Source: an uncultured Lewinella sp. (GTDB lineage: Bacteria > Bacteroidota > Bacteroidia > Chitinophagales > Saprospiraceae). From it: a DNA stretch of 64,000 bases. The translations under genes were made by a program, and so were the position numbers. This document shows positions 30,831-36,755 of this stretch, piece by piece. The notes beneath the pieces were generated by a model. It saw only the letters and a list, made by a program, of their open reading frames with translations. It made no database searches and was not told the origin of the DNA. The stretch lies in NCBI GenBank assembly GCA_913057725.1, contig CAJXOS010000018.1, positions 1-64,000 on the forward strand. The letters are read 5' to 3'. The stretch's first letter is position 1. Each line of letters opens with the position of its first letter.

Positions 30831-31787
30831 ATGAACGAAAGGAATAAGGGAATAGTAGCGGTGGTGCTGGCGGCACTGGTGTGGAGTACGGCGGGGCTGT
30901 TTATCAAATGGTTGCCGCAGGATGCCTTCACGATATTGTTTGTGCGGGCTATCTATACGATGCTGGTGTTTTATGCGGTGTACCGCCTGGAGGTGCTGCG
31001 CTTTAATAGGCAGACCTTCATCAATATGCTCTTTTATGCGGGGCTGCTGGTGTGTTTTGTGACCTCCACGAAATGGACCACCGCGGCTAATGCCATCTTT
31101 TTGCAGTATACGGGCGTGGCCTACGTACTGCTGCTGGAGCCGCTGTTGTTTAAGCTGCCGTACAGGCGCATCAACATCATCACTACCGTGGTGTGCTTTT
31201 TGGGGATGAGCCTCTTCTTTATGGAAGACTTTGATGCCAGTGGCGGCTGGGGGCTCATCATAGCGGCGGTATCGGGCGTGGCCTATGCGGGTTTTATGCT
31301 GGGCCAGCGTGCCAACCCGCCGGAGTACCACGTGGCGGCGGTGTTTTGGGGTAATCTGCTGGTGGCGGGCATAGGGCTGCCGAGCTTCCTGGCGGCGGGG
31401 AGCTTTACGATGGAGGCACAGCTGATGCTGGCCTACCTGGGCCTGATACAGATGGGCTTGGGCTATCTGCTATTCACCTACGGCCTGAAGCGGACCACCG
31501 CCACGGAGACCTCGCTAATAACCATGCTGGAGCCGCTCTTTAACCCGGTGTGGGTGGCAGTGGGGTACGGGGAAAAGCCTAGCGTGCTGGCGATAGTAGG
31601 CGGGGTGATAATAGTGGTGGCGCTGATTGTGCGGATTTTGGTGCTGCGGAAAACGGTGGGGCGGGAGCGGAAGGTGGAGAAATTGGGTGAGGGTACCCTG
31701 TACTACGTACCTAGTACTAAACAATCTTACTGCTTGATGATCATTTGCTGCTGGATATCTTTGCCTGCTTGTACCTGTAAGAAATAG
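30831..31787 (+). CDS. DMT family transporter (EamA)
   Basis: 10-TM EamA pattern; abnormal C-terminal tail overlapping the next gene. Confidence 0.9.
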   Translation: MNERNKGIVAVVLAALVWSTAGLFIKWLPQDAFTILFVRAIYTMLVFYAVYRLEVLRFNRQTFINMLFYAGLLVCFVTSTKWTTAANAIFLQYTGVAYVLLLEPLLFKLPYRRINIITTVVCFLGMSLFFMEDFDASGGWGLIIAAVSGVAYAGFMLGQRANPPEYHVAAVFWGNLLVAGIGLPSFLAAGSFTMEAQLMLAYLGLIQMGLGYLLFTYGLKRTTATETSLITMLEPLFNPVWVAVGYGEKPSVLAIVGGVIIVVALIVRILVLRKTVGRERKVEKLGEGTLYYVPSTKQSYCLMIICCWISLPACTCKK

Positions 31788-33307
31788 GTGCCTGCTGGCA
31801 GATTCGCTGGTGTATACCACTGCAGCTCGGTGAGCTCCTGTTGGTTGGGGATGTGCTCTTCTGCTACCAGCTGGCCCACACTGTTATAAAGGCTTACCTG
31901 TGCCGATACACCCACCGGTACCTCCATTGTGACCATGCTCACTTGGGAGAATGGGTTGGGGGAGGTTTGGAGGGTGAGGTGGGTAAGTGTTGGATCGGTC
32001 TCTATACGTCTAGTCCCACCGTCGGCTTCAGATTGTGAGAAATAATTACTAAGATTCAGAACTTGTCCATTCTCAACGGTTGTGTTTAGTGCGGGAACAA
32101 TGTCGGCATTCGATAAAAGCAGGCTCTTTATTTCGACCATGGATGAGTTAGGATTAGCTATAGCTAGCTGAGCAAGTGCAGCAGTTACTTGAGGTGCGGC
32201 AAAAGAAGTACCCGTAGATAAATAATAATTTGAGCCATCATTGGTGAGAATGTCTACAGCCTCTGTTGCAATTTCATAAAACTCTGGATTGGAATTTGTT
32301 CCTTGCCAAGGTTGAGTGAAGCACTGTTCTGTACCAGCAACGGATATTTCCGTCGCTAGGGCTATTTCGCCTGGAAAAACATTCCTTCTCGAGTCAAAGC
32401 CTTGATTACCAGCAGCACTGACTAACGTGATATTATCAAATGGAATAATTGGGGAACTACCTGCGGTAGTACCAAAAATTTCCGCCCATTCTTGCTTTAA
32501 TGTCGAAGAACCTCCAGCTAGGTGTCCTGTTGTAGTAATTAGGTTGGCACTGAAATTAACGATGACTCTATCTTCTGGCCCCCAGTCGCCGGACTCGAAT
32601 TGATCTTCCAAATAACCAGCCAGTTTTAACAAAATGTCTGAGGTACTTTGCCCTGTGTTTTCGAAAGTCACGAGGTTCAAATATTCAACTCCTGTAGCTC
32701 CAGTCTGTGTCAGGATATTTTCGATCACGGAAAATACTTTTAGACCATGAGTTCCCCCTAAAACTGTTGAATCATTAAACAAATTGATTGTAGTCATTCC
32801 AGGTATATATTGATCAGCGATGATGACCTTTATTCGTTCTTGGTTGGAATTCACAGACTGATCTTGACCAATAAGTCGATTATTGTGACTATCGTCACAG
32901 TTTGGAAGAGGGTCGAATGTTCCATTAGAATATAAAAGCCCACCATCTCCTATGAATAGTAGCATTTGCAAATCTCCGTCTTGGACATTGCTACGAGCTG
33001 TCGAATTTCCTTGTTCCCCATTTTGGATATTGATGTGCCAAAGCAATTCCTCAACATTATTAATGATTGAGGATTCACCATTTTCGGTGTAAGTGATGGG
33101 GAAGTTAATATTTGCCCAAAGTTCAAGTCTATTGTCAGAGTTTATCGTTGAATATTCCGAAATTCCGTACAGGTCGCGCAGCACTTGTTGGTTAATAGGT
33201 GATGCGCTAGAAGTATACCGAACAATAAACTCACTGGAAGAATAACTTTGGGCGGTAAGTTGAAACGCTAATGATAGTCCTAGGAGCACTTTTACAATTG
33301 TGTTCAT
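31727..33307 (-). CDS. S8-like (subtilisin-like) serine protease with T9SS sorting domain
   Basis: GGTHGLKVFSVI (His), VSAAGNQGFD, GTSFAAPQVTAALA (Ser); C-terminal LQTSPNPFSQVSMVTM...GTYFLQVQAGKDIQQQMIIKQ. Confidence 0.85.
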   Translation of the reverse strand: MNTIVKVLLGLSLAFQLTAQSYSSSEFIVRYTSSASPINQQVLRDLYGISEYSTINSDNRLELWANINFPITYTENGESSIINNVEELLWHINIQNGEQGNSTARSNVQDGDLQMLLFIGDGGLLYSNGTFDPLPNCDDSHNNRLIGQDQSVNSNQERIKVIIADQYIPGMTTINLFNDSTVLGGTHGLKVFSVIENILTQTGATGVEYLNLVTFENTGQSTSDILLKLAGYLEDQFESGDWGPEDRVIVNFSANLITTTGHLAGGSSTLKQEWAEIFGTTAGSSPIIPFDNITLVSAAGNQGFDSRRNVFPGEIALATEISVAGTEQCFTQPWQGTNSNPEFYEIATEAVDILTNDGSNYYLSTGTSFAAPQVTAALAQLAIANPNSSMVEIKSLLLSNADIVPALNTTVENGQVLNLSNYFSQSEADGGTRRIETDPTLTHLTLQTSPNPFSQVSMVTMEVPVGVSAQVSLYNSVGQLVAEEHIPNQQELTELQWYTPANLPAGTYFLQVQAGKDIQQQMIIKQ

Positions 33308-33554
33308 GCTTTTGAATGATTATTTAAGAATATATATCATTACTATAAGCTCGTGTACTTTAAAACGTGACTACTTTTTTAGAATATTTCTTGCAATTCT
33401 GTAGTTGCAACAGATAAGTGTTTTTGTATTGTGTGATTTTGTCATTTATATAATTCTCTAGGTAAGAAAAGAAAAAACTTAGTAAATGTAATAGTTAATA
33501 TAATTGATATGCCATTCTTAGTAACAGGATCTAATCGATCCCTTGCTTATTATT

Positions 33555-33598
33555 AACCATGTGTCGTTTTGTTTTTTCTTGCAAAACGACACATGGTT
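33555..33598. promoter_or_regulatory. 17-bp perfect inverted repeat in a divergent intergenic region
   Basis: AACCATGTGTCGTTTTG-ttttttcttg-CAAAACGACACATGGTT. Confidence 0.9.
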
Positions 33599-33839
33599 TT
33601 GCGACGGGGCGAATTACTTTAGTTTTTGAAAAAATGAATCCATGTTGCTAAGTTGTAGATTTCTATTTTGAGAATTTTCTAACTTTTATACGCAAAATGA
33701 CTGAAAACGTCTGGACTCTAGAACAGGTTAATTAAATTACTCGATTTTCTGTTTCATTACTTAGTGTAGTATTTATGATCTAGCTCTATCTGCCACCCTA
33801 ATTTCTTATTTCGCTTTATTTATTACGTAGAAAACTGAA

Positions 33840-36755
33840 TTGAACATGATCAGATGTCTAAAAATAAGCATAGTATTGATTTGTTGCAGCTTTCAACTCT
33901 TAAGCCAAAATGGTGATGCGTCTGTCTTTCAATTAATTGCCAAAGCTAGGACGACAGACAACAAAGAAAGTTTACCATTTATTGATGAAGGCTTTATAAT
34001 ATGCAATTTACGATCTTGTTCAGATTCAATAATTGGAATGCTCTATCAGAGAAAAAGTGTCGCGTTTTACAGAGACTATATTGATGATAACTTAGCTGTA
34101 TTGTATGCTGATTCTGCCACGCTTTATTATGAAAGAGCTTTTACTAATCCTAATATGCTCATTGCAAACTCTTACTTTAATAAAGGTACAATGCAACGAG
34201 AAATCGGAAGAATTGAAGAGGGAAAGGAATCAATAGAGATAGCGCTCGATAGATTACAACAGATACAGAGACAACTTCCAGATGAGGACTTAGACTCAAT
34301 AAAGGTCAATTGGAATTTTGATCTTGTTAGGATTTATACTCAGAAAGGAGACTTCAAAACGGCACTCGAAAAGGCTCGACAATTGATCAGCGAAAATGAG
34401 CTGAATAGATTTAACGAGAAACGATTCACAAATCAATTAGGCTTGATAAACCTTGCACAAGGCAATTATCGATCTGCAAAAGATAGATTCTCTTACCTAG
34501 TTGAAGTTCTTCACGCGGATGAGGATATTACCTACAGAGGAAATTTAGGCCTTGCATTTCTGAATCTGCAAGACTTTGATAAAGGCGCAACATATTTAGA
34601 AGAAGCAAATCAGGCATGGAAAAATCTCTTGAACCAGACGGACAACAATTACAATAGGAGATATTTATCAAATTCTCATTCTAATCTTTTCCAGCTATAT
34701 CTGGAGTTAGGAGATTGGAACAAGGCCGATTATCATATTACTGAGGCATTAGCTCTCCTTCGTAAAGTTGACAATACCGAGAGTATGATTCGCTTCGCGG
34801 AGCTCTATTTTAAGAAATCTAGGCTGGAACATGCTTTAGGAGACTACGATAGTAGCCTTTTTTTTCTAGAAACGGCAATTGATATCGTAGCCCCTGAACT
34901 GTTCCATACTGGTACCGAAGAGCAGATTAGCATTATTGGTAACTTTAAAGAAGCCCTCGAAATTATCGCCTTCCGTGCTCAAGTCCTGGCGGAACAGGGA
35001 GAATTGAATAAAGCCTTGGATGATGTGATGCTCCTCAATCGGCTGGTGACACAAAGTAGGAGAACGTACCAATCTTCCCTCTCTAAGTACTTTTTGATTC
35101 AGAAGGTGGTGCCGGTGTATGAGTTGGGGATCAGGCTGAACCGAGAGCTGTATGCCCAGACGGGGGACCGAGAGTATCTGGAGCAGGCCTATGCGCTGAA
35201 TGCCAGAAACAAAGCCATACTGCTACTGGAAAGCCTGCAAAGTGAACGGGCCATGACTTTTGCTGGGCTACCCGCGGAAATACAAGGACAAGAACGAGAA
35301 TTGCGGGATGCGGTTTCGGAGCAGGAGAGCTTGCTGTATCAAGCTTACCAGCAGGGCGATGATATTGATAGCCTACAAAGTGTGGTGTTTGAGCAGGAGC
35401 AGGCCTACTATCAGTTTATCCAGCAGCTGGAACGGGACTACCCGGCGTATTACGAACTGAAATATAGCGCGGATCGGCCACCGGTAAGTAACGAAATACA
35501 AGATAAACTAGAGAGCGATCAGGTACTGCTAGAGTACTTTACGGGTCAGGATAGTATCTATACCTTCCTGATGGATGGACGGGAAATGCGGGTATACAGT
35601 AAGGCAAAGCCAGCGGGTTTCGTGGATTCGGTAGCGCTGTTTAGGGAGTTGCTAACAAATGGAATTGAGAAAGATTGTGAGCAGACCTACATCCGTCTGG
35701 GGCGGTATTTTTATGATCTCTTGCTGGCTGAACCGCTCGGGAGCCTTGGAGAGCATAAGCAGCGCCTGGTAGTAGTGCCAGACGGATTGCTGAATTTCCT
35801 TTCTTTTGAGGCTTTCATCTATAAGGATCTGGAACGTCTGCAGGGTGCTGAAGGCTTCTTGGTGGAGAAATATGCTTTTAGCTATGCCTACTCCAGTAAG
35901 CTGCTCCTAGAGGAAGAATATTATCCGCGGAGCGCGACCAAAGGCTTTGCAGGATTTGGGATGGAGTACGACGACTACACCCTGGATTATCTGCAAGAAC
36001 TGGAATATGGTGATTGGAAGTACGTAGATACTACCCTGGTACTGCCATGTGGCCAACTGAAGGATACCACGCGCTATTATGGAAAGCTAATCTACTCGGA
36101 TGATGAGGTACGGGATATCGCTGCCTTGGCGGAGGGTGACAGCTGGCTAAACGAAGAAGTGATGAAGCAAAGCTTCATGGACAATGCCAACGGCTATAAG
36201 CTCCTCCACTTGGCTATGCATGGCACCTATGATTTGGAGTTTCCGATGAACTCATCGCTCATCTTTAGTCGGAGAGATTCGACTGATATTTTCTTGCGGG
36301 CAGCCGACATCTATAACATGGAACTGGATGGTGATATGGCGGTGCTGAGCGCTTGCAATACGGCCTATGGAAAGCTGCAAGCAGGGGAAGGTCCGATGAC
36401 TTTGGCGCGGGCATTCCACTACGCCGGCATACCAGCAGTAGTGGCCAGTCTCTGGAGTATACCTGATAACTCGACCTCGCGGATTATGAGGTTGTTTTAT
36501 CAGGAGCTGGATAAAGGACTGTCAAAGGATGTGGCCTTGCAGCAAGCAAAGTTGGCATACCTGGCCAGTGATGATTTAAGCTCGCCGAATTCCAGGCAGC
36601 CGCTACACTGGGCACCTACTATAGTGATCGGGGATGTAGCGCCGGTGCCGATTTCGCCGCGTTCGAATTGGTGGTGGATTTTGCTGGGGGCTGGAATTCT
36701 GCTTGGCGGATATTTGATGGTGAGAAGAGGGAAAGCGAACGATGCGATAAGTTAA
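33840..36755 (+). CDS. TPR-CHAT domain protein with signal peptide and C-terminal TM helix
   Basis: TPR-like N-terminal half; CHAT motifs HLAMHG (His) and LSACNTAYG (Cys), ARAFHYAGIPAVVASLWSI; C-terminal NWWWILLGAGILLGGYLMVRRGK. Confidence 0.92.
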   Translation: MNMIRCLKISIVLICCSFQLLSQNGDASVFQLIAKARTTDNKESLPFIDEGFIICNLRSCSDSIIGMLYQRKSVAFYRDYIDDNLAVLYADSATLYYERAFTNPNMLIANSYFNKGTMQREIGRIEEGKESIEIALDRLQQIQRQLPDEDLDSIKVNWNFDLVRIYTQKGDFKTALEKARQLISENELNRFNEKRFTNQLGLINLAQGNYRSAKDRFSYLVEVLHADEDITYRGNLGLAFLNLQDFDKGATYLEEANQAWKNLLNQTDNNYNRRYLSNSHSNLFQLYLELGDWNKADYHITEALALLRKVDNTESMIRFAELYFKKSRLEHALGDYDSSLFFLETAIDIVAPELFHTGTEEQISIIGNFKEALEIIAFRAQVLAEQGELNKALDDVMLLNRLVTQSRRTYQSSLSKYFLIQKVVPVYELGIRLNRELYAQTGDREYLEQAYALNARNKAILLLESLQSERAMTFAGLPAEIQGQERELRDAVSEQESLLYQAYQQGDDIDSLQSVVFEQEQAYYQFIQQLERDYPAYYELKYSADRPPVSNEIQDKLESDQVLLEYFTGQDSIYTFLMDGREMRVYSKAKPAGFVDSVALFRELLTNGIEKDCEQTYIRLGRYFYDLLLAEPLGSLGEHKQRLVVVPDGLLNFLSFEAFIYKDLERLQGAEGFLVEKYAFSYAYSSKLLLEEEYYPRSATKGFAGFGMEYDDYTLDYLQELEYGDWKYVDTTLVLPCGQLKDTTRYYGKLIYSDDEVRDIAALAEGDSWLNEEVMKQSFMDNANGYKLLHLAMHGTYDLEFPMNSSLIFSRRDSTDIFLRAADIYNMELDGDMAVLSACNTAYGKLQAGEGPMTLARAFHYAGIPAVVASLWSIPDNSTSRIMRLFYQELDKGLSKDVALQQAKLAYLASDDLSSPNSRQPLHWAPTIVIGDVAPVPISPRSNWWWILLGAGILLGGYLMVRRGKANDAIS

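Follow-up and report, generated by a model that had tools for sequence, protein, structure and literature searches.

Comparison of four copies of a divergent gene pair in the genus Lewinella indicates that in some of them one domain of each encoded protein has been replaced by a diverged allele through recombination ending in conserved sequence. One of these copies lies in a 64,000-nt stretch of DNA (hereafter the window; contig CAJXOS010000018.1, assembly GCA_913057725.1, positions 1 to 64,000) from an uncultured Lewinella sp. of the family Saprospiraceae, whose genome (G000) comprises 7.19 Mb. The pair consists of two genes with facing 5' halves, a subtilase (S8) gene with a type IX secretion system (T9SS) sorting tail on the minus strand and a TPR-CHAT protease gene on the plus strand. 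Our preferred reading, to which we assign a probability of about 0.7, is that both proteins, the subtilase being exported and the caspase-like TPR-CHAT protease periplasmic, contain one exchangeable domain each, hereafter a cassette, that is recombinationally replaced by diverged alleles. Literature searches (CHAT with type IX secretion and subtilisin, Lewinella with CHAT domain, and broader ones) returned nothing on a T9SS subtilase-CHAT pair.

Mosaic structure and assortment of the cassettes

The compared copies come from three species and include copies A and B, both carried by G062, a single-contig genus mate of the window genome, copy C of Lewinella cohaerens DSM 23179 (G199), and the window's own copy. 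When the codon alignment of copies A and B was segmented into two states, the subtilase gene fell into a pro-region with 95.2% nucleotide identity (columns 0-253), a catalytic core with 59.0% (columns 254-1393) and a sorting tail with 97.2% (columns 1394-1649), and the CHAT gene into an N-terminal TPR part with 59.1% (columns 0-865) and a remainder with 97.4% (columns 866-2951). The fourfold-site divergence between A and B was 0.09, 0.56 and 0.10 for the pro-region, core and tail of the subtilase, and 0.67 and 0.08 for the TPR part and the remainder of the CHAT gene; silent sites in both cassettes are saturated. Because fourfold-degenerate sites do not feel the task of the protein, these segments have different histories, and protein constraint cannot explain a mosaic with fourfold divergence of 0.08-0.10 in the constant parts against 0.56 and 0.67 in the cassettes.

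The outer non-coding flanks of the two copies are 94.4% (213 nt) and 90.2% (254 aligned nt) identical. The outer flanks of copy A adjoin in both L. cohaerens (46-nt gap) and the window genome (98-nt gap), which makes this copy an insertion of about 5.2 kb. Copy B occupies the same site as the loci of L. cohaerens and the window, next to an M61-type peptidase gene. Directly downstream of the CHAT gene of copy A, a stretch at L062:7884-8101 resembles many short dispersed stretches of the L. cohaerens genome, and this repeat may have helped copy A to insert.

The locus of L. cohaerens combines an A-type subtilase core with a B-type TPR part. At fourfold sites, its core diverges from that of copy A by 0.51 and its TPR part from that of copy B by 0.49, with a species background of 0.48-0.57. 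Trees were built with hand-chosen outgroups (9 of 22 S8 and 9 of 77 CHAT sequences; mixture=False). The N-terminal part of the CHAT protein joined B with C (support 100/99; A+B rejected, p = 9e-5), whereas its C-terminal part joined A with B (100/99; B+C rejected, p = 9e-4). The subtilase tail also joined A with B (98/94). In the subtilase core tree, A paired with C (87/87) and B fell outside a clade uniting these two with the window (91/92). The pro-region tree favoured no grouping. The G062 mosaic, the A-type core beside a B-type TPR part in L. cohaerens and the conflicting trees all argue for replacement of domain cassettes by recombination. On the simplest account, the native core would persist in copy A, which acquired a new TPR part, and the native TPR part in copy B, which acquired a new core.

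A sequence-only reading of the window had proposed that a single cassette of roughly 3 kb, spanning both facing gene halves, was swapped by recombination in conserved sequence. The swap itself is borne out in the relatives by the mosaic, the fourfold sites and the conflicting trees. The single cassette gives way to two that assort independently, as seen in L. cohaerens; it was rejected because copies A and B of G062 share a constant subtilase pro-region (93-97% nucleotide identity) and a constant adjoining start of the intergenic region.

We propose that the subtilase is exported to the cell surface and that the CHAT protease resides in the periplasm. In the relatives, the core of the subtilase and the TPR region of the CHAT protein were replaced separately by diverged alleles, with recombination ending in conserved sequence at the edges of the domains; the segments for export, the catalytic part of CHAT and the flanks remained constant. 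The donors would be homologous alleles of other Lewinella cells. What the subtilase cuts would depend on the exchanged core, and what the CHAT protease senses on the exchanged TPR part; a duplication such as that of G062 would place two specificities in one cell. The AT-rich island of the window described below would then mark the same two cassettes.

The two proteins

Pfam searches agreed with the domain content claimed from the sequence alone, namely Peptidase_S8 and Por_Secre_tail in one protein and TPR and CHAT in the other. The T9SS sorting domain of the subtilase scored above the cut-off for both PF18962 (28.1 bits vs 27) and TIGR04183 (38.5 vs 23), and the D, H and S positions and the oxyanion N, presumably those of the catalytic site and assigned by eye, are conserved in the alignment of the four copies. 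In the other protein, the CHAT domain (PF12770, 179 bits) covers residues 620-932, with TPR families N-terminal to it, and H794 and C839, which we take to be the CHAT catalytic His and Cys, are invariant across the four copies. This protein is probably periplasmic and membrane-anchored, judging from an N-terminal signal peptide and a C-terminal membrane segment, both read by eye. No PADLOC family matched the CHAT protein and the subtilase gave weak PADLOC matches only (at most 17.4 bits), nor was any toxin or immunity family among the Pfam matches of the two proteins.

The copy in the window

In the window, the subtilase gene (526 aa; PF00082 and PF18962) occupies 31727..33307 on the minus strand. 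With boundaries projected from the alignment, it is divided into the GC-richer constant sorting tail (about codons 443-526, 31727..31981), the first cassette, which is the AT-rich catalytic core (about codons 86-442, 31982..33052), and the constant signal peptide and pro-region, also AT-rich (33053..33307). The GC content at third codon positions (GC3) of these segments is 0.63, 0.32 and 0.38, respectively. An intergenic region of 532 nt (33308..33839; GC 0.29; 150 nt in G062) separates the subtilase gene from the TPR-CHAT protease gene (971 aa) at 33840..36755 on the plus strand, which has a TTG start as listed and an in-frame ATG at 33846. The second cassette is the AT-rich N-terminal TPR part of this gene (about codons 1-274, 33840..34661), followed by the constant part with the inner TPR repeats, the CHAT protease domain and the C-terminal anchor (34662..36755). 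The AT-richness runs past the edge of this cassette to about 34953.

An AT-rich island had been claimed at 32035-35090, with the composition change falling inside both genes, and both claims stand. The best two-boundary fit over 26-42 kb placed the island at 32040-34960 (GC 0.372 inside vs 0.536 outside), within about 130 bases of the claimed edges, and the lowest-GC stretch of 3056 bases in the 64-kb window also begins at 32040 (GC 0.375). The GC3 change-point of the S8 gene is at codon 441 of 527 (0.33 to 0.64) and that of the CHAT gene at codon 371 of 972 (0.34 to 0.57), and a break as strong was reached in 0 of 1000 permutations for either gene. The log-likelihood ratios (lnLR) of the two change-points were 13.9 and 24.9, against at most 6.9 among 31 other long window open reading frames (ORFs) taken from a mechanical ORF list; mean GC3 of the listed neighbouring ORFs is 0.48-0.51. 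On the CHAT side the rise in GC is graded rather than a step, and the GC3 break lies near 34953, not at 35090.

Sequence identity between related strains had been predicted to collapse between 32.0 and 35.1 kb. This holds for the TPR half of the CHAT protein, whose amino acid identity to the relatives is 31-34% compared with 69-70% in the C-terminal part, but not for the subtilase, which differs from copies A and C to about the same degree throughout. In other genera, pairs with a CHAT-part identity of 0.75-0.88 keep a TPR identity of 0.67-0.87, in contrast to 0.70 and 0.33 for the window. The silent sites of the window copy are saturated against the relatives. The CHAT divergence pattern would fit replacement and also fast evolution, and cassette exchange in the window itself is suggested by analogy with its relatives.

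AT-richness and the source of the cassettes

For the family-wide comparison, genes were taken from profile searches, 81 of 85 CHAT matches being kept for GC3 (length >700 aa) together with 26 of 72 S8 matches (E <1e-50 and a GTS-type motif; the rest appeared mostly sorting-tail-like). The GC3 contrast of the CHAT gene (C-terminal minus N-terminal part) was +0.25 in the window, +0.37 and +0.33 in G062 and +0.26 in L. cohaerens, compared with at most 0.13 in the other 77 family CHAT genes. The subtilase contrast (tail minus core) was +0.31 to +0.52 in the four Lewinella copies and at most 0.08 in 22 others. The island is thus specific to the Lewinella locus type, present in 4 of 4 Lewinella copies and in 0 of 77 other family CHAT genes. 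An AT/GC contrast as a rule for S8-CHAT pairs in general was rejected, as the GC3 contrast did not differ between CHAT genes with and without an S8 neighbour (p = 0.58). Among the other Lewinella genes sampled, a strong GC3 break within the gene was seen only in polymorphic-toxin-type PT-HINT genes of G062 (L122:5543-12712), with lnLR values of 21.0, 11.0 and 9.8.

Searches of four genus genomes with copy A's TPR part and copy B's S8 core gave strong matches at the known loci only. The likeness to variable-specificity systems claimed from the sequence alone therefore stands for cassette replacement in the relatives and is not supported for programmed shuffling, a candidate that was rejected with no silent donor cassette found in these four genomes and two full loci in G062. 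With a profile of the four S8 cores, matches came from 5 of 398 family genomes, namely three Lewinella genomes and two others in which the match was weak and partial. An external donor of the core was likewise rejected, no closer donor appearing in this profile search. One locus, in L. cohaerens DSM 23179, was returned by a scan of genome contigs. As neither further copies in the four genus genomes nor a close core outside Lewinella were found, the donor pool appears to reside in further Lewinella strains or species.

Low GC is found in replaced and in inherited cassettes alike, and in each of the three species. AT-richness is therefore a standing property of the cassettes and not the trace of a recent import, since it persists where a cassette was inherited. 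It may stem from long-lasting polymorphism, whereby partner-poor parts would escape GC-biased conversion and drift to AT and constant parts would recombine freely. GC-biased conversion has been described for bacteria (PMC4450053), and here it serves only as a putative cause of the AT-richness. On the older branch of the CHAT C-terminal part, the A/B lineage shows 56 AT>GC against 41 GC>AT changes, and the L. cohaerens lineage 46 against 88.

Alternative explanations

Concerted evolution would produce the same A/B mosaic if A and B were old paralogues whose constant parts and flanks had recently been homogenised by conversion, the cassettes being too different to take part. The raised GC3 of the constant parts of G062 (0.65-0.77) is also what conversion might produce. 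However, the recent A/B changes carry no GC bias, homogenisation would have to cover both non-coding 3' flanks, and the site of copy A is empty in L. cohaerens and the window genome, so that the old paralogue would have been lost twice or never shared. Moreover, the A-type core and B-type TPR part at one locus in L. cohaerens require intra-locus recombination regardless, and we regard this explanation as unlikely. Less probable still is that nothing was exchanged and that the cassettes are fast-evolving domains under diversifying or relaxed selection, AT-rich for unstated reasons. The window genes do fit the genus order, and copies B and C at ordinary orthologue distance already differ in their TPR (70% identity) and CHAT (89%) parts; but the window's TPR identity falls far below that of the pairs from other genera cited above, within single G062 genes fourfold divergence differs six- to eightfold from one segment to another, and the trees conflict, so that the absence of exchange is already contradicted for G062. 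An import of the AT-rich cassettes from an unrelated low-GC organism would account for their GC3 of 0.23-0.32, far under that of neighbouring genes, but it appears highly improbable, because core profile matches are nearly confined to Lewinella in the family, all four cores form one clade (100/100), and the cores of A and C are AT-rich yet orthologue-like, with fourfold divergence at the species background.

Several observations weigh against replacement of the cassettes by diverged alleles, or against parts of that account. The evidence base is four copies from three species and not a population sample. The window's S8 core and CHAT N-terminal part agree with the genus order in trees, which vertical descent fits equally. 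For the subtilase core, the rejection of A+B is marginal (p = 0.043), and trees holding B+C or A+B+C together gave p = 0.07 each, short of rejection. Low GC does not coincide one-to-one with the cassettes, as the constant pro-region is AT-rich as well (GC3 0.35-0.42), which escape from conversion leaves unexplained, and the A/B changes in constant parts polarised by L. cohaerens (22 AT>GC, 29 GC>AT) show no GC bias. Structure models from 2-row alignments were too poor for use (predicted local distance difference test, pLDDT, 37 and 40). The cassettes do not co-travel in L. cohaerens, which speaks against a matched recognition pair. A broader interpretation, a two-gene self/non-self or target-recognition system in which cores and sensors combine from a long-lived AT-rich allele pool, is tentative and on balance doubtful.

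Comparison with known systems and implications

Restriction specificity genes and toxins are familiar cases of domain exchange between constant ends. In hsdS, the type I restriction specificity gene (PMC7557576, PMC7394358), variable recognition domains lie between constant segments, recombination in conserved sequence yields new combinations, and duplicated copies occur in one genome, as in the locus described here. In contrast, hsdS recognises DNA, whereas the present locus encodes a protease pair with no silent copies or recombinase shown, and the exchange is evident from comparing species and copies and not from switching in a culture. Bacteroidota polymorphic toxins (for example TANFOR/BaCT, PMC7073777) resemble the locus in joining an exchanged active part to a constant delivery part. 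In the Lewinella pair, however, an internal segment is swapped and the sorting tail at the C-terminus stays constant; neither toxin activity nor an immunity gene is shown, and the partner cassette does not co-travel. A third comparison is with CHAT and caspase-like proteases of bacterial conflict systems and with diversified CHAT-bearing sensors of multicellular bacteria (PMC10907252). A CHAT protease likewise occurs there in a protein with a diversified part, but diversity there arises via diversity-generating retroelements, unlike the domain replacement in a seemingly periplasmic protein here.

If the preferred reading is true, an intragenic GC3 break may flag such loci from one genome, and combinatorial specificity in surface-living bacteria could be tested with this gene pair as a model. 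The finding would also caution that an AT-rich segment need not be recent foreign DNA.

Regulation and genomic setting

A perfect 17-bp inverted repeat with a 10-nt loop lies in the intergenic region of the window (33555..33598); it occurs at one place in its own genome and had no match in three other genus genomes. A promoter-like motif, GTCACGTTTT ... CTTATA, is present on the subtilase (minus) strand at 33344..33371. The motif precedes the subtilase in all four copies and an extracytoplasmic function (ECF) sigma gene in G062 and L. cohaerens, the sigma-70 ECF assignment being a match of the G062 gene; the subtilase may thus belong to an ECF sigma regulon. Two facing motif copies between the ECF sigma gene and a divergent gene (L123:7345-7411 and L124:6157-6212) suggest a small autoregulated regulon. 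G062 has eight motif sites, two at the ECF sigma gene, two at the subtilases and four elsewhere, and two copies are within or beside the PT-HINT stretch L122:5543-12712.

Outside Lewinella, the two genes are codirectional, with the subtilase leading, in 20 of 22 S8-CHAT neighbour pairs; one pair is divergent and one convergent. As 13 of the 20 examined places were picked for a nearby S8 gene, the 26 of 81 CHAT genes with an S8 neighbour do not represent a frequency. Among ten T9SS-tailed CHAT neighbours scanned, six carry DUF7619, three a tail only and one, a chosen control, S8. T9SS-tailed DUF7619 proteins are encoded directly before CHAT genes in other genera (L143, L145, L141, L188, L191 and L192), and an exported partner seems to be a more general feature of CHAT genes.

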